A stretch of DNA of 36,191 nt from Methanomassiliicoccales archaeon. GTDB lineage: Archaea; Thermoplasmatota; Thermoplasmata; Methanomassiliicoccales; JAAEEP01. The notes below the pieces were generated by a model that was not told the origin of the DNA, searched no databases, and worked only from the letters and a program-made list of their open reading frames with translations. Where the stretch lies: positions 1 to 36,191 of the forward strand of contig JAAEEP010000020.1 in the NCBI GenBank assembly GCA_013415695.1, in the 5' to 3' direction. Numbering within the stretch: position 1 is the stretch's first letter; every line of letters begins with the position of its first letter. Shown here in pieces: positions 2,161 through 11,491 of this stretch. Both the position numbers and the translations under genes were made by a program.

Positions 2161-2559
2161 CTATGGCATGTACAGCACGGTGGTCGCGGTCGGAAGGATC
2201 TTCCTCAGGTCGCTGACATGAGGGAAAAACAAGCGCATCTCATCGTCATTCTCGGGCTCCCTCTTGATGAGGTTGGAAACCACCTTAACCTCTATCCTGC
2301 CCCGGATCTTCCATGCACCTCCAGGGTATGCGGTGTCAGTTGATATGTAGATAGGAAGCTTGAGCTTGCGCCTCTCCCTCTCTTCAAGCAGAGATGCGAT
2401 CTTATCGAGCTCTTCTTTTTTCAAGCTGTACTCGGTGCCATCCTTTCCACTATAAGTGGGCTCCTCCTGTTCCAGTAGCTGCTCAAGCGATGATCTCTTT
2501 GCGGGAACGTGCCTGTTCATAGACTGGATGAGCTTCTCGATGGACAGCTGGTCGACCAT
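2161..2559 (-). CDS. UPF0216 (DUF61) family protein
   Basis: 132 residues from the chosen ATG. The open frame continues upstream to 2862, but that extension is Cys/His-rich junk antisense to the next gene. At 2559 a GAGGTG ribosome binding site sits about 8 bases before the ATG, and the family-like sequence begins there (MVDQLSIEKLIQ). Family features are the SLEQLLEQEEPTYSGKDG region, the LKLPIYIS segment, GGAWKIRGRIEVKVV, and a C-terminal KILPTATTVLYMP resembling the 'LP-T-T' ending of archaeal UPF0216 proteins. Function is unknown; it is an archaea-restricted small protein. It is probably the promoter-proximal gene of a UPF0216-DUF763 unit. Confidence 0.82.
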   Translation of the reverse strand: MVDQLSIEKLIQSMNRHVPAKRSSLEQLLEQEEPTYSGKDGTEYSLKKEELDKIASLLEERERRKLKLPIYISTDTAYPGGAWKIRGRIEVKVVSNLIKREPENDDEMRLFFPHVSDLRKILPTATTVLYMP

Positions 2560-2580
2560 CTTATGTGCACCTCGATGTAT

Positions 2581-2612
2581 GGTATATTCTACTTCCATCT
2601 TCGGATATAAGT
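2581..2612 (-). promoter_or_regulatory. Promoter region of UPF0216 gene
   Basis: Read on the minus strand there are two TATA-like elements, CTTATATCC at 2604-2612 and AATATACC at 2581-2588. Either would place transcription start just upstream of the GAGGTG ribosome binding site of the ATG at 2559. Their position argues against the longer reading frame that starts at 2862. Confidence 0.45.
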
Positions 2613-2651
2613 TTTGGTCAGAATTGTTGCTATCTCGGTCAACATTCTCCG

Positions 2652-2679
2652 CCATATTATATAGCGCCGAAACGAGGTG
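2652..2679 (+). promoter_or_regulatory. TATA box and RBS of the lipoprotein gene
   Basis: ATATTATATAG at about 2653-2663 is a good archaeal TATA box, and GAGGTG at 2674-2679 is a ribosome binding site 6 bases before the ATG at 2686. The element is back to back with the UPF0216 promoter, making this a divergent promoter region. Confidence 0.5.
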
Positions 2680-2685
2680 TGAAGC

Positions 2686-3264
2686 ATGAAGGCAAGAGCC
2701 ATTATGGCACTCGTTCTCGCAACCACACTCATGGCCATTACTTTCGTGGGTTGCGTTTCCAGCCCGGAGATCATCCTGCAGGACGGCTTCGAACAGGGAA
2801 TGGGCGATTGGGCAGTGGGTATGGACCTGCCCATCGATCCAGAGACCGATATTCCCGTGCAAGCGAGCGTAGCGATTTCCAGCGAGCGTGCCAGGAGCGG
2901 TGAGGCCTCGATCAACATCACCATCGATGGAAGGCAGGATGATGGAATCGTCTGGGTAATGAGATCGATCACGGTTCCGTCAGATGGTGCGATCGATTTG
3001 AAGATAAGTTTCTTCGTGTACAGCGAGTCGGAATCATTCAACACTATTGCACATGTCGTCGCATACATCGGAGATGATCAGCCGGTGAACGAGAATTCAT
3101 TTGAAAAGCTGGGTCCAGCGAACCCGGCTGAAGGATGGAATGAATTCCATCTCGAGAACAAGTTGGATTCCGACGGCGAGATATGGATCGCGGTGGGCAT
3201 ATCCGTTGCCTGGGAGACCTGGATGACATACTTCATCGATGACATCAGTGTCGCTTCGAAATGA
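2686..3264 (+). CDS. Secreted predicted lipoprotein with jelly-roll-like domain
   Basis: 192 residues. The N-terminus is a typical signal sequence: Lys2, Arg4, then a hydrophobic stretch to about residue 22. It ends in a lipobox-like TFVGC, so Cys23 may be lipidated and the protein held on the outer face of the membrane. The mature part begins with ILQDGFEQGMGDW and ends with WMTYFIDDISVASK. This pattern is common in beta-sandwich (galactose-binding/carbohydrate-binding-like) domains, where 'D-G-F-E-x-G-x-x-x-W' opens and 'I-D-D-I-S-V' closes the fold. I do not recognise a specific family or ligand. It is a single-gene unit with its own promoter. Sugar or polymer binding at the cell surface is a guess from fold resemblance only. 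Confidence 0.72.
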   Translation: MKARAIMALVLATTLMAITFVGCVSSPEIILQDGFEQGMGDWAVGMDLPIDPETDIPVQASVAISSERARSGEASINITIDGRQDDGIVWVMRSITVPSDGAIDLKISFFVYSESESFNTIAHVVAYIGDDQPVNENSFEKLGPANPAEGWNEFHLENKLDSDGEIWIAVGISVAWETWMTYFIDDISVASK

Positions 3265-3370: not shown

Positions 3371-4648
3371 ATGAGTGCCGAAGCGAAAACGGATCTCAAG
3401 GACAAGATTGAGACGCATCCATGCTATTGCGAGGATGCTCACAAGAAGTTCGCCAGAATGCACATTCCTATCGCCCCAAGATGCAACATCCAGTGCAACT
3501 ACTGCGATCGAAAGTATGATTGCATGAACGAGTCGAGACCGGGGGTCACAAGCGAGGTTCTCACCCCTGAGGAAGCGGTCGCCAAGATAAGGAATGTGAA
3601 GGAGAAGATTCCCAACCTGAGCGTCATTGGAATAGCGGGTCCAGGTGATCCGCTGGCCAACGACGAGACCTTCAAGGCGCTGGAAATGGTCCACGATGAG
3701 TTTCCCGACCTCACTCTTTGCCTGAGCACCAACGGGCTGAACCTTCCAAAGTACGTGGACAGATTGTGGGAACTAAACGTTCAATTCCTGACCGTGACCA
3801 TGAACGCCGTCGATCCTGAGATCGGGAAGGAAATCTACGACTTCGTGATCTGGGAAGGTGAGACCCTGAGAGGGAGGGAGGCGGCCGAGCGCCTTATCAA
3901 GAATCAACTTGAGGGCATCGAGAGGGCGGTGGATCTTGGCATGTGCGTCAAGGTGAACACGGTATTCATCCCCGAGATCAACGGGAAGCACATCCCAGAG
4001 CTGGCGAAGAAGGTCAAGGAGCTGGGAGCGTACATATCCAACATCATTCCTCTGATCCCAGTCCCGGGTACCAGGTTCGAGAACATGAGGCCTCCAACGC
4101 CCAAAGAGCGAAGGGAGCTCCAGGCACTCTGCGAGGTGGACATCAGGCAGATGAGGCACTGCAAGATGTGCCGCTCCGATGCGATAGGTCTCCTTGGCAG
4201 AGACAGATCAAAGGAATTCGCAGTCATTCCCTGCGGGCAGTGCGAACCCGAACCCGCCACGGAAATGCGCAAAATTGAGAAGAAGGAGTCCTACAAGGTA
4301 GCAGTTGCCTCCTCCGAAGGAGAGAATGTCGACATGCACTTCGGCCACGCGAGGACATTCTACACCTTCGATGTGGAGAGCGGAGCCATTCTGCCCAGGG
4401 GCACGATAAACGTGGAGACCTACGATGAGATCCCAATGTTCGGCGAGGCCCATGCCACCAAGCTGGAAAAGGCCGCTGACGCCCTTACCGTGTTCGATAT
4501 AGTCATCGCTGTCAAGATCGGTCCCCGAGCTGTGGAAGAGCTTAGGAAACATGGAATTCTAGCCTACGCCACCAAGGGGAACATCAACGAGGCGGTGAAG
4601 AAGGCGACAGACCTTTTACATGAGGGAAAGATAGAAGAGTTCGAGTGA
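3371..4648 (+). CDS. nifB: Nitrogenase cofactor biosynthesis protein NifB (radical SAM + NifX-like domain)
   Basis: 425 residues. NifB fuses two [4Fe-4S] clusters and inserts carbide to make NifB-co, the precursor of FeMo-co and related cofactors. The radical-SAM motif CNIQCNYC (Cys38, Cys42, Cys45) is preceded by HPCYCEDAH (Cys18) and followed by RKYDCMNESRPGVTS, the NifB-specific signature. The later CKMCRSDAIGLLGRD carries the second set of cluster ligands, so all known ligand regions are present. From about residue 310 to the end there is a NifX/NafY-like domain (VAVASSEGENVDMHFGHA), a fusion also seen in many bacterial NifBs. An RBS, GAGGAAGG, lies at about 3360-3367. The stop overlaps the possible GTG start of the next gene. 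No nifH, D, K, E or N is in the window, so a role in nitrogen fixation depends on genes elsewhere. Confidence 0.93.
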   Translation: MSAEAKTDLKDKIETHPCYCEDAHKKFARMHIPIAPRCNIQCNYCDRKYDCMNESRPGVTSEVLTPEEAVAKIRNVKEKIPNLSVIGIAGPGDPLANDETFKALEMVHDEFPDLTLCLSTNGLNLPKYVDRLWELNVQFLTVTMNAVDPEIGKEIYDFVIWEGETLRGREAAERLIKNQLEGIERAVDLGMCVKVNTVFIPEINGKHIPELAKKVKELGAYISNIIPLIPVPGTRFENMRPPTPKERRELQALCEVDIRQMRHCKMCRSDAIGLLGRDRSKEFAVIPCGQCEPEPATEMRKIEKKESYKVAVASSEGENVDMHFGHARTFYTFDVESGAILPRGTINVETYDEIPMFGEAHATKLEKAADALTVFDIVIAVKIGPRAVEELRKHGILAYATKGNINEAVKKATDLLHEGKIEEFE

Positions 4649-4653
4649 TTGGC

Positions 4654-6252
4654 ATGAGGGGCGCAGATCTAGTGGTGAGATGCTTGGAAGCCGAAGGCGT
4701 TGATCGCATATTCGGCATACCTGGAGAGGAGAATCTTGATCTTGTGGATGCCCTCATAGACTCCGATATCGAGTTCATCGTCACCAAGCACGAGGAAGGG
4801 GCCTCCCTGATGGCTGAAATCTCGGGAAGGCTTACCCATAGACCAGGAGTCTGCCTTTCCACTCTGGGACCGGGAGCGACAAACCTGGTCACGGGGGTGG
4901 CGGACGCATATCTCTCCCATATCCCAATGATCGCCCTCACGGGACAATTGAGAAGGGAGAGATGCATACCTCCCCAGAAGCAGTACCTTGATCTGGTGAA
5001 ACTTTTCGAACCGGTGAGCAAACAGAGCATTAGCCTAAGGGATCCGGTCAGAATCACGGAAGAGATGAGGAGAGCCTTCGACATCGCCGTCTCGGAAAAA
5101 CCTGGTCCAGTCCACATCGAGCTACCAGAGGATGTGATGAAAGAGGAGATTGAGGGAGAGCCAGTTCCATCTTTCAAAAAGATGAGCGTGTCTGCGGACG
5201 GGGCGGAGCTCGATGCTCTCTGCGATCTCATCATGAACTGCAAGCAGCCTCTGATCATGGCCGGGTATGGCGTGGTGCGTCAGAAAGCGGAAAGGGAGCT
5301 AAGGATGTTCGCGGAGGAGTGGAATATCCCGGTGGCCATGACCTGGATGGGGACGGGCGCGATCCCTTTTGATAATCCACTTTCGCTTCACACGGTAGGT
5401 TTGAGGACGCATGACTTCATGAGAAGGGCGTTCCAGCACGCTGACCTAGTCATTCTGATAGGATACGACATGCTCGAGTTCCAACCTGTTTTCTGGAATA
5501 TCGGGACGGAGAAAAGGACAGCCCACGTGGGACCCCTGCCCGTTGAACCAGCTCAGGGATTCTACCCGGACCTTCAGGTTGTAGGAGACCTCAAGCTAAC
5601 TCTTTCCTCGCTATCTAGCCATGCGACCAGACGAAAGAACTGGACCATTGATCTGCGAAAGGAACTGCACTCCAGAATGGACGAACTGCCCCCGGACGAG
5701 GGTCTCGTCAAACCGCAGCTAGCCGTTCGCAAGATAAGGGACTCTCTAGACAGAGAGGATATCGCCATCTGTGATGTTGGGGCACATCTGCTCTGGATGA
5801 TGAAGCTCTATCCCGTATACAAGGAGAACACCCTGATAGTCTCAAATGGCCTGATACCCATGGGACTGGCAGTGCCCGGGGCAATAGCAGCAAAGCTGGT
5901 TCATCCCGAGAGAAAGGTTGTGGCGGTCTGCGGTGACGGCGGGTTCATGATGACCTCCTGCGAACTGGAGACCGCGGTGAGGCAGGACACTCCCTTTGTC
6001 GCGGTCGTTTTCAACGACTCTGGATATGGTCTCATAGCCACCAGGCAGAGGAATACCTATGGCAGGGAGTATGGGGTAAGGTTCGGCAATCCAGACCTGG
6101 TGAAGTACGCGGAATCATTCGGTGCCATCGGATGCAGGGCCTCATCGGCCCAGGACCTAGGGGAGCTTCTGAACATCTGTCTGGATGAGGCCGTTCCGTG
6201 CGTGATCGATGTACCTGTGGACTATTCTGAGAACGCCAAGCTCACCAAATGA
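4654..6252 (+). CDS. Acetolactate synthase-like TPP-dependent enzyme (large subunit)
   Basis: About 532 residues. It belongs to the thiamine-diphosphate enzyme family of acetolactate synthase, which condenses two pyruvates to acetolactate and CO2. The N-terminal pyrimidine-binding domain starts GADLVVRCLEAEGVDRIFGI and has the cofactor-activating Glu in KHEEGASLMAE. It also has TLGPGATNLVTGVADAY, the standard ALS signature. The C-terminal domain has the TPP/Mg motif GDGGFMMT...FNDSGYG. The 'GIPGEENLDL' variety groups with stand-alone ALS-type proteins; no regulatory small subunit (ilvN) is adjacent. It could be a relative acting on another 2-oxo acid. I use ATG 4654; an in-frame GTG at 4645 overlaps the nifB stop. 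Either way it is translationally close-coupled to nifB. Confidence 0.83.
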   Translation: MRGADLVVRCLEAEGVDRIFGIPGEENLDLVDALIDSDIEFIVTKHEEGASLMAEISGRLTHRPGVCLSTLGPGATNLVTGVADAYLSHIPMIALTGQLRRERCIPPQKQYLDLVKLFEPVSKQSISLRDPVRITEEMRRAFDIAVSEKPGPVHIELPEDVMKEEIEGEPVPSFKKMSVSADGAELDALCDLIMNCKQPLIMAGYGVVRQKAERELRMFAEEWNIPVAMTWMGTGAIPFDNPLSLHTVGLRTHDFMRRAFQHADLVILIGYDMLEFQPVFWNIGTEKRTAHVGPLPVEPAQGFYPDLQVVGDLKLTLSSLSSHATRRKNWTIDLRKELHSRMDELPPDEGLVKPQLAVRKIRDSLDREDIAICDVGAHLLWMMKLYPVYKENTLIVSNGLIPMGLAVPGAIAAKLVHPERKVVAVCGDGGFMMTSCELETAVRQDTPFVAVVFNDSGYGLIATRQRNTYGREYGVRFGNPDLVKYAESFGAIGCRASSAQDLGELLNICLDEAVPCVIDVPVDYSENAKLTK

Positions 6253-6319: not shown

Positions 6320-8998
6320 ATGATGAACCCATCCGAGTTCGACCTCACCTTCTTCAAGGACGGAAGCTTCATCAGAAGGCAGTGTCCCAAGTGCGGCAGG
6401 TTCTTCTGGACTTTGGGAGATTGGGAGACCTGTGGGGAGCCGCCCTGCGAGGAATACACCTTCATCGGTAACTCTCCCATGCGCAAGAGCCTTGACCTCC
6501 ACCAGACCAGAGAGACTTTCCTGAGCTTCTTCGAGGAGCACGGTCACGGAAGGGTGGCGAGGTACCCCATTGTGGCTCGATGGAGAGACGATGTCTTCTT
6601 CACTCAGGCCTCGATATACGACTTTCAGCCATGGGTCATCAACGGTGTGGTCGATCCACCGGCGAATCCGCTTGTCATATCCCAGACCTGCGTGAGGTTC
6701 AATGACATAGACAACGTGGGAAAGACGGGCAGGCACTTGACATTCTTCGAGATGCTGGCTCACCACGCGTTCAACAAGGAAGGGCATGAGGTGTACTTCA
6801 AGGACCGCACGGTCGAGCTGTGTCACGAGCTCTTCACCGATAGGATGGGCGCGGACCCAAAAAGGATGCGCTACATCGAGGCCTGGTGGGAAGGTGGGGG
6901 CAACTCCGGTCCGTGCTTGGAGGTCATACTGGACGGCGTCGAGCTCGCAACCCTCGTTTTCATGCAGTACAGGGACACCCCGGAAGGAAGGGTCCCGTTG
7001 AGCATGAAGGTGGTTGACACTGGCTACGGTCTTGAACGCATCTCGTGGGTATCACAGGGTTCCTCCTCCGCGTACGAGGCGGTCTTCGGAGAGGTGCTCG
7101 ACTTCCTGAAGGGACAGGTGGATGTCGATCAGGACGAGAGGGTCCTGGTGGAGTACAGCAAGGTCGCGGGAATGACGAACGCTAAGACCGCGTCCGACGT
7201 GAGGATGATAAGGGAGGAGACGGCCAAGCGCATGAGCATCTCGTATGATGACCTCATGACCATCGTCCGGCCCCTGGAGGAGATGTATGTGATATGCGAT
7301 CACACCAGGGCATTGGCGTTCCTCCTGAACGATGGTGTGGTACCTTCCAACGTGCGGGAGGGGTACTTCGCCCGGTTGCTTGTGCGCAGGGCTCTGAGGT
7401 CGATGCGTACCCTGGACTTGGATAGACAGCTCTCTGAGATAGTAGGCAGGCAGGTGGACTTCTTCGTCGAACACTTTCCAGAACTGGACGAGAATCGTGA
7501 GGATATCCTCAAATTGGTGGACGTGGAGGAGGACCGCTACCGGGAGACCCTCTCTCGCGGGAAGCAACTGGTCTCAAAGATCACCAGAGGAATGAAGAAA
7601 GGCGAGAAGATCAGGGGAGAGAAGCTGATCGAGCTCTATGACTCTCATGGCCTGAACCCAGAGATCGTGCAGGAATTCACCTCGGTCGAGGTGGAGGTTC
7701 CCGATGACTTCTACATCCAGGTAGCGGAAAGACATGAGGCTCCGGAGGAGCAGGTCAACGGGTCGATGAAGATGTTTGCCGACTTGCCCGATACTGAGCA
7801 GATATACTATTCCGACCCGACCCTTCACGAGTTCGAGGCTGAGGTGATCTTCATCACCGACGGAGGCGTGATCCTGGACCGGACGGCCTTCTACCCAGAA
7901 GGCGGTGGACAGGAGTGGGATCTCGGCACCCTGGCAGGAAGGAGGGTCACCAAGGTGATCAAGGTCGGCAACTCCATACTGCACTATCTCGATGGCGATC
8001 TGCCTCAAATTGGCGATAGAGTGCTGGGAATCATCGATGTGGAGAGGAGAAGACAGCTGATGAGGCACCACACCGCTGCCCATATAATCAACGGTGTGGC
8101 TAGGAGAATGCTTGGTAACCATGTCTGGCAGGCTGGCGCCCACAAGTCAGTCGAGGAGGCAAGGCTAGACATAACCCACTACGAGAACCTGGACAATGAG
8201 CAGAGGGAAGCCATGGAAATGGAGGCCAACCGAATCGTGCTGGATGATCATCCAATCATGGTTGAGTTCATGCCCCGCGATGCTGCCGAACGCAGGTACG
8301 GGCACAGATTGTACCAGGGGGGAGCCGTTCCAGGGAAGGTCATAAGGGTGGTTGATATCCCCGGGATAGACGCTGAGGCATGCGGAGGCATCCACTGCAA
8401 GCGCACAAGCCTAGTAGGCCCGATCAGGATCAAGAGGACCAGACGCATCCAGGACGGGGTCGTCAGGATCGAGTACTCAGCAGGCTACGCAGCCATCGAT
8501 GAAATGAGAATGGACAGGAATGTAGTGGAGGACATCTCAGATCTGATGAACTTCCCTCGAGAGAAGCTCGTTAAGGGTGCCAAAACCCTATTGGGAGATA
8601 ATAAGAATCTGAGAAAGACCGTGGAGAAGATGCTCTCCGAGAGGACTGAAATCATTGCGGAAATGCTTCTTGAGAGATCGGCGCCCATCGGAGAAGTAAG
8701 GCTAGTGACCTATCTCGACGAGGAGGGGGCGGACATCGCCGCCATCTCCAAGAAGTTGTCCTCGGAGAAAGGACTGATCGTGGTGGCCATGCAGATGGGC
8801 ACGGGCAAGGTGCTGGTATCAAGAAGTCTAGACCTTGACTTGGATTCCAGACTGGTACTCCGGGAGATCAACAAGCTTGTCGGCGGGGGAGGCGGCGGCA
8901 AGCCAGACTTCGCCCAGGGAGGCGGTGCGGATCCGGGGAGTATGCAAGAGGCGATGGCAAAGATAGAGGAGATCATCAGGGACATGATGAAGAGCTAG
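6320..8998 (+). CDS. alaS: Alanyl-tRNA synthetase (archaeal type)
   Basis: 892 residues, the usual size for archaeal AlaRS. It charges tRNA-Ala in the cytoplasm and edits Ser/Gly mischarging. The N-terminal extension with CPKCGRFFW...CGEPPCEEY is the archaeal-specific zinc-like module. The class II aminoacylation core follows (FFTQASIYDFQPW, QTCVRFNDIDNVGKTGRH). The editing domain at about residues 580-700 has both metal-binding motifs, HHTAAHIIN and the CxxxH of ACGGIHCKRT. A C-Ala domain ends with a glycine stretch and GGGADPG. Everything needed for charging and editing appears intact. It has its own leaderless promoter and is followed by the ribosomal protein operon after 119 bp. Confidence 0.96.
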   Translation: MMNPSEFDLTFFKDGSFIRRQCPKCGRFFWTLGDWETCGEPPCEEYTFIGNSPMRKSLDLHQTRETFLSFFEEHGHGRVARYPIVARWRDDVFFTQASIYDFQPWVINGVVDPPANPLVISQTCVRFNDIDNVGKTGRHLTFFEMLAHHAFNKEGHEVYFKDRTVELCHELFTDRMGADPKRMRYIEAWWEGGGNSGPCLEVILDGVELATLVFMQYRDTPEGRVPLSMKVVDTGYGLERISWVSQGSSSAYEAVFGEVLDFLKGQVDVDQDERVLVEYSKVAGMTNAKTASDVRMIREETAKRMSISYDDLMTIVRPLEEMYVICDHTRALAFLLNDGVVPSNVREGYFARLLVRRALRSMRTLDLDRQLSEIVGRQVDFFVEHFPELDENREDILKLVDVEEDRYRETLSRGKQLVSKITRGMKKGEKIRGEKLIELYDSHGLNPEIVQEFTSVEVEVPDDFYIQVAERHEAPEEQVNGSMKMFADLPDTEQIYYSDPTLHEFEAEVIFITDGGVILDRTAFYPEGGGQEWDLGTLAGRRVTKVIKVGNSILHYLDGDLPQIGDRVLGIIDVERRRQLMRHHTAAHIINGVARRMLGNHVWQAGAHKSVEEARLDITHYENLDNEQREAMEMEANRIVLDDHPIMVEFMPRDAAERRYGHRLYQGGAVPGKVIRVVDIPGIDAEACGGIHCKRTSLVGPIRIKRTRRIQDGVVRIEYSAGYAAIDEMRMDRNVVEDISDLMNFPREKLVKGAKTLLGDNKNLRKTVEKMLSERTEIIAEMLLERSAPIGEVRLVTYLDEEGADIAAISKKLSSEKGLIVVAMQMGTGKVLVSRSLDLDLDSRLVLREINKLVGGGGGGKPDFAQGGGADPGSMQEAMAKIEEIIRDMMKS

Positions 8999-10660: not shown

Positions 10661-11491
10661 ATGGACATCAAGGTTCTTGAACTCATGGAGAACAGGATCA
10701 AGTTCCTGCTCTCAGACGCTACGGCCGACACCGCGAATGCTCTGAGGCGAACCCTCATTTCCGACGTTCCCAAGATGGCAATCGAGACTGTAGAGTTCCA
10801 CTTGGGCCCTATTAGCGACGATGAAGGCTACGAATACGAGAGCGTGACTCCTTTGTTCGACGAGATGATCGCTCACCGCCTGGGTCTCATTCCGATACCC
10901 ACCGATCTGAGCCTTTACACCTTCAAGGATGAGTGTGTTTGTGGAGGAGAGGGTTGCCCCAACTGCTCCATTATGTACTCCTTGAACAAGAAGGGACCTT
11001 GCGATGTATTCTCTGGAGACCTGGAGCCGCTGGGAAACAAGGAGTTGAGGGTGAAGGATGAACTCATCCCCATCGTGAAGCTTGGCGAGGGTCAGGCGAT
11101 CCTGATATACGCATCAACTGAGCTTGGCACCGCCAATAAACATGCCAAGTGGCAGGTGACCAGCGGTGTCGGTTACAAGTACTACCCAACGGTGATCATC
11201 GACGAGAAAAAGTGTGATCAGGGAGGCTCCTGCGTACGGGCTTGCCCCCACAATGTCTTTGAGAAGGCAGAAGATAGGGTCGTGGTCATGGACCCCGAGG
11301 CATGCGATCTTTGCAAAGCATGCATCGAGGTGTGCGAGAGCTCAGCCGTTTCCGTTTCTTGGGACGACACCCGATTCATCTTCGAGTTCGAGACTGACTC
11401 TTCCTTAAACGCCGCTGACGTGCTTGAAAAAGCTCTTGAGATACTCGAGTCGAGCTACGAGTCCTTCAGGGAAAAGGTTTCTGATCTTTAG
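10661..11491 (+). CDS. rpo3: DNA-directed RNA polymerase subunit D (Rpo3) with ferredoxin-like domain
   Basis: 276 residues. Subunit D is the alpha/Rpb3 homologue that dimerises with subunit L to start RNA polymerase assembly. N-terminal motifs LLSDATADTANALRRTLISDVP and FDEMIAHRLGLIPIPTDL are typical. A zinc-type cluster CVCGGEGCPNC follows near residue 92. The inserted ferredoxin-like domain at about residues 180-230 has CDQGGSCVRACP then CDLCKACIEVC. The second motif has all four cysteines. In the first, the position that would be the second Cys is Gly, so one site probably holds [3Fe-4S] and the other [4Fe-4S]. An RBS, GAGGTT, lies 8 bases before the ATG. Its stop is only 6 bp from the stop of the convergent polymerase gene. 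Older symbol: rpoD. Confidence 0.95.
   Translation: MDIKVLELMENRIKFLLSDATADTANALRRTLISDVPKMAIETVEFHLGPISDDEGYEYESVTPLFDEMIAHRLGLIPIPTDLSLYTFKDECVCGGEGCPNCSIMYSLNKKGPCDVFSGDLEPLGNKELRVKDELIPIVKLGEGQAILIYASTELGTANKHAKWQVTSGVGYKYYPTVIIDEKKCDQGGSCVRACPHNVFEKAEDRVVVMDPEACDLCKACIEVCESSAVSVSWDDTRFIFEFETDSSLNAADVLEKALEILESSYESFREKVSDL

Follow-up and report, generated by a model that had tools for sequence, protein, structure and literature searches.

The closest described system is that of Methanococcus maripaludis, whose methyl-coenzyme M reductase (MCR) activation complex was solved by cryo-EM in 2025: its published composition is McrC, Mmp7, Mmp17, Mmp3 and A2, and [8Fe-9S-C]-type clusters are held by McrC and Mmp7 (PMC12176620). 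The authors of the structure proposed NifB as the source of these clusters, and work cited in their paper, as represented there, found NifB to be essential in methanogens without nitrogenase (PMC12176620). A possible second function of nifB in Methanocaldococcus had been noted in an earlier genetic study (PMC8809328). For the proteins MtNifB and MthNifB, the ligands of the radical-SAM, K1 and K2 clusters have been described (PMC9692996), and for MaKGD, a cyanobacterial 2-oxoglutarate decarboxylase that becomes relevant below, a docked model places the substrate in a salt bridge with K471 (PMC10418658).

The locus considered here lies on contig JAAEEP010000020.1 (C20) of assembly GCA_013415695.1, in a stretch of 36,191 nucleotides (the window), to which all coordinates refer unless another contig is named. 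The assembly comprises 1.99 Mb in 41 contigs and is 99.6% complete; the source organism is a methanogen of the order Methanomassiliicoccales, within which it forms a separate family among the 61 genomes compared. Across the order, almost every genome has nifB (57 of 61, with mcrA in 54), and full NifH-type genes are confined to some of the genomes.

A Complete NifB without Detectable Nitrogenase

The nifB gene (3371..4648, plus strand) encodes a protein of 425 aa that passes the curated NCBIfam NifB equivalog model TIGR01290 with 457 bits against a cut-off of 344, and whose closest named relatives, at 50–62% identity, belong to Methanomassiliicoccales, Methanomassiliicoccaceae or Methanomethylophilaceae. 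Residues 32–214 (3464..4012, plus strand) form a radical-SAM domain scoring above the Pfam cut-off for PF04055, and residues 317–412 (4319..4606, plus strand) a NifX-like domain (Nitro_FeMo-Co, PF02579, 50.8 bits against a cut-off of 26.3). Compared with the published ligand assignments (PMC9692996), the set is full: C38, C42 and C45 (CX3CX2C) together with C51 for the radical-SAM cluster, C18, H31, E54 and C117 for K1, and C264 and C267 (CX2C) for K2, each at least 95% conserved in an alignment of 44 NifB sequences. The initial annotation, which had read this gene as a NifB complete in all cluster-ligand regions and fused to a NifX-like domain, is thus borne out, and the best explanation of these features is an intact NifB, predicted to be functional and to make NifB-co.

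It had also been remarked that no nitrogenase structural or assembly gene lies nearby, an absence that proves to extend to the whole assembly. Across it, PF00148 (the NifD/K/E/N family) and PF00142 (the NifH family) gave only sub-threshold partial matches, none above cut-off. The sequences behind some of these weak matches read as a glutamate-dehydrogenase-like protein and a glycosyltransferase, and others as CooC-like, Mrp-like, ArsA-like and ferredoxin-MinD proteins, not as nitrogenase. No NifDKEN, NifH or alternative nitrogenase was detected in this 99.6% complete genome, and the combination of nifH, nifD and nifK with nifE (and nifN) that defines a nitrogenase system does not occur in it. 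The suggestion that nif genes lie elsewhere therefore falls away, no complete nif operon having been found. It is extremely improbable that the organism fixes nitrogen and that its nif genes are simply missing: the assembly is divided among many contigs and NifH/D-type genes do exist in some relatives, but such completeness without any fragment of NifH, D, K, E or N argues to the contrary, as do several near-complete nifB-bearing relatives that likewise lack NifH- and NifD-family genes.

In many relatives (for example G009:C5:8615 and G044:C27:13705) there are frames of ~700–830 aa in which a full NifH domain is followed by a weak NifD-family match; these apparently represent the NifH/NifE-type fusion that Borrel et al. 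pointed out.

The nitrogenase-like enzymes of F430 synthesis, CfbC and CfbD, are also undetectable in this mcr-bearing genome. The same is true of nine further genomes, all with mcrA and 91–99% complete (G002, G007, G011, G023, G027, G030, G039, G045 and G054), making ten near-complete mcr-bearing genomes of the order, the source included, without CfbC and CfbD; G048, at 89% completeness, also lacks both and keeps CfbE. CfbE is likewise kept in G054 and in the source genome, where it lies inside a 96-kb contig (C9; locus L184, 3814–5106), adjoining hemA and hemB. Loss of CfbD at a contig end was thereby ruled out, the CfbE gene being interior to its contig with neither cfbD nor cfbC beside it. 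Either CfbC and CfbD have repeatedly been lost from assemblies, or F430 is obtained another way, and the absence raises the question of how these methanogens get F430. We found no literature on CfbD in Methanomassiliicoccales or on the absence of CfbD in methanogens.

MCR Activation as a Probable Destination for NifB-co

The source genome carries mcrA, and within 20 kb of contig C13 lie the genes for the McrA-thioamidation YcaO protein, McrB, D, G and A, component A2, McrC, and Mmp3, 6, 5, 15, 17 and 7. All published members of the activation complex (McrC, Mmp7, Mmp17, Mmp3 and A2) are thus encoded together with mcrBGA, the match for Mmp7 being full length and just below its cut-off (344.5 against 349). 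With no nitrogenase family detected and a complete MCR activation set present, cluster supply for MCR activation best explains the orphan NifB, and since CfbC and CfbD are missing as well, MCR activation is the only known destination for NifB-co in the genome. In such a scheme, NifB would build the [8Fe-9S-C] cluster (NifB-co, or L-cluster) for a use other than nitrogenase; the clusters would go to McrC and Mmp7, where they would act as the electron-transfer clusters of an ATP-driven complex, and this complex would reduce the F430 of MCR from Ni(II) to the active Ni(I) state. We regard it as likely that the orphan NifB is a cluster supplier for MCR activation and not for nitrogenase, the step by which it would feed McrC and Mmp7 being argued by analogy with M. 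maripaludis. The initial annotation had allowed that NifB-co might be used for something else, and both the gene set and the clusters seen in the published complex (PMC12176620) favor this option.

The wider distribution bears on this reading in both directions. All ten genomes without CfbC and CfbD retain nifB. One genome of the order (G017; 98% complete, mcrA present) has no match to nifB and also lacks the gene that follows nifB elsewhere, which counts against supply of MCR clusters as the explanation, although its nifB locus is possibly missing from the assembly. Outside the order, ten Thermoplasmata genomes (L187–L193 and G146, G168 and G173) carry a NifB without the NifX domain, and in the seven contexts read, no nif genes were seen among the predicted proteins near it; other clients of NifB may therefore exist. 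The presence of NifB beyond the order, together with the loss of CfbC and CfbD from genomes that keep mcr and CfbE, could be taken to mean that NifB-co has a further client in the source organism, such as a CfbCD-independent F430 reductase. This appears very unlikely, since the MCR activation complex, a client demonstrated by structure, is enough by itself, and nifB is just as present in genomes that have CfbCD.

That NifB supplies the clusters of MCR activation is an idea already published, for which this genome is an unusually clean case. A lineage that has kept NifB but has no detectable member of the nitrogenase protein family amounts to a clean natural test, and it supports the idea that serving methane formation is the older or main job of NifB in methanogens.

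The nifB Neighborhood and Its Conservation

Immediately downstream of nifB lies a gene for a thiamine pyrophosphate (TPP)-dependent enzyme (4654..6252, plus strand; PF02776, PF00205 and PF02775), annotated as the large subunit of acetolactate synthase (ALS) of the PRK08322 type. As noted initially, the two genes are either separated by 5 bp or overlapping: ATG 4654 lies 5 bp past the nifB stop, and the alternative start GTG 4645 would give a 4-nt overlap with it. The ATG is the likelier start because homologue alignments begin at about that point (~residue 4), and the gene is probably co-transcribed with nifB. Next comes archaeal alaS (6320..8998, plus strand; TIGR03683, 1100 bits), an ordinary neighbor that may share a transcript with the genes upstream, and then S13, S4, S11 and rpoD. 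In RNA polymerase subunit D (10661–11491, plus strand) a ferredoxin-like 2x[4Fe-4S] domain is inserted, as is known from some archaea.

On the other side, nifB has a divergent neighbor encoding a DUF61 protein (2161..2862, minus strand; PF01886), kept in most relatives; homology begins at residue 98–108, so the first ~100 codons of this frame are probably untranslated. Just upstream of nifB, at 2686–3264 on the plus strand, is a lipoprotein-like frame (signal peptide plus Cys), 45–48% conserved in relatives of family f5 and matching no known family.

An orthologue of the TPP enzyme was found in 37 of the 61 order genomes, and in every genome where its position could be judged (36 of 36) nifB is the gene immediately before it, mostly at a distance of 4–42 bp; in the 37th, the gene starts right at the edge of a contig. 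Further ALS-like genes in the order (~30–36% identical) are located away from nifB. In family f2 (presumably Methanomethylophilaceae), nifB is retained but nearly every genome lacks the TPP gene, the exception being a divergent copy (37%) at the same place in G044. In the Methanomethylophilaceae-like loci that lack it (L004–L011), a divergent AlaRS-like gene (25–29% identical to alaS) is found downstream of nifB, directly in most.

Conservation of this pair in relatives, which had been proposed as a check, is therefore established. The accompanying suggestion of a link between cofactor supply and carbon metabolism is half sustained: the pair is real and conserved, but a functional link is not thereby shown. 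Adjacency by itself proves no shared function, and since DUF61, too, holds its place upstream of nifB in different families, part of the conservation is general synteny. We met no description of the pairing in the open literature, which was not searched for the pair by name.

The Pocket of the TPP Enzyme

By model score the enzyme passes as an acetolactate synthase (NF006187, PRK08322; 629 bits against a cut-off of 509), with TPP motifs, and its best PDB matches are the catabolic acetolactate synthases of Bacillus subtilis (AlsS, 4RJJ) and Klebsiella (1OZF). The pocket residues, however, are not of the AlsS type, so that the label "acetolactate-synthase-like" stands at the level of the family model while the pocket argues against a plain acetolactate synthase. 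The enzyme (numbered from ATG 4654) has Arg251 (codon 5404..5406), Leu379 (5788..5790), Leu460 and Arg464 (6043..6045), all on the plus strand. Arg251 is invariant in the nifB-linked clade (30 of 30 sequences), and each of the 29 clade sequences with a residue at position 464 carries Arg or Lys there; the corresponding residues of B. subtilis AlsS are Phe and Gln, and AlsS has Met in place of Leu460.

MaKGD was compared through its reported contact residues (PMC10418658), mapped at constant offsets and not by full sequence, and on this basis 9 of its 13 reported cofactor or substrate contacts are identical in the TPP enzyme (E50, V382, A384, H385, M410, D435, D462, Y465 and L467), Y465 and L467 being variable among the enzyme's relatives. 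A basic residue is kept at the position of K471, the salt-bridge residue aligned with Arg464, whereas Gln254 is replaced by Arg (Arg251), Lys386 by Leu (Leu379) and Ala408 by Ile. The Lys386 position is Leu, Phe or Met in the nifB-linked clade, and Lys in the homologues from Leisingera and Haloarcula. These last two, among the closest plasmid-borne homologues, adjoin genes for aldehyde or succinate-semialdehyde dehydrogenase, an arrangement that fits an aldehyde-releasing decarboxylase.

With its invariant Arg and a second, conserved basic residue, the pocket is nearer to that of the cyanobacterial 2-oxoglutarate decarboxylase, which makes an anionic 2-oxo acid the likely substrate, one that may differ from 2-oxoglutarate. 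Whether the enzyme would be a non-oxidative decarboxylase or carboligase acting on such an acid, and not one converting pyruvate to acetolactate, we put at about even. A genuine acetolactate synthase, serving branched-chain amino acids or acetoin and placed by nifB through inherited gene order, is a rather unlikely alternative. The model score, the PDB matches and the general stability of a locus in which DUF61 is also kept all speak for it; against it stand a further two ALS genes of biosynthetic type in this genome, the basic residues that replace the Phe and Gln of AlsS, and the pairing of homologues with aldehyde dehydrogenases. The conserved partner of nifB is an enzyme with a pocket unlike that of acetolactate synthase, probably mis-annotated across the order.

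By analogy, the enzyme could possibly be the sulfopyruvate decarboxylase of coenzyme M synthesis, in which case the operon would join activator clusters and coenzyme M for MCR. A basic pocket would suit this anionic 2-oxo acid, no ComE-sized gene occurs among the genome's PF02775 matches (leaving out a 1201-aa frame on contig C7), and most genomes of f2, to which coenzyme M auxotrophs such as ISO4-H5 presumably belong (PMC5011839), lack the enzyme. We nevertheless consider this assignment unlikely, given a published report of ComDE in other members of the order (PMC4153887) and given that the matches listed for the enzyme include no ComD or ComE family, the best 25 NCBIfam matches all being acetolactate synthases and related TPP enzymes. 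A candidate for a fused ComDE on contig C10 proved to be pyruvate dehydrogenase E1-alpha; that region (locus L197, 3304–8192) encodes lipoyl synthase and pyruvate dehydrogenase E1 alpha, E1 beta and E2, in a methanogen genome. Extending the idea, the nifB–TPP operon might be an MCR cofactor module that provides activator clusters and an MCR-coenzyme precursor (e.g., sulfoacetaldehyde for coenzyme M) in lineages without any nitrogenase-family protein, CfbCD included, which would then make or acquire F430 by an undescribed route; this we hold to be speculative and a little more doubtful still.

Comparison with Known Systems

The TPP enzyme shares with the acetolactate synthases 4RJJ and 1OZF a three-domain architecture alignable over the full length, the catalytic Glu and the GDG motif. 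NifB itself has the same radical-SAM core, NifX fusion and ligands as the NifB of diazotrophs (e.g., the Rivularia and Acetobacterium loci), but resides in a genome without nitrogenase structural or assembly genes. With the Methanococcus maripaludis system (PMC12176620) it shares the company of McrC, Mmp7, Mmp17, Mmp3 and A2 in a methanogen, and a need for NifB apart from nitrogenase. The two systems differ in that nifB here lies apart from the mmp genes and adjoins a TPP-enzyme gene instead, that its product bears a NifX domain, and that the genome is also without CfbC and CfbD.
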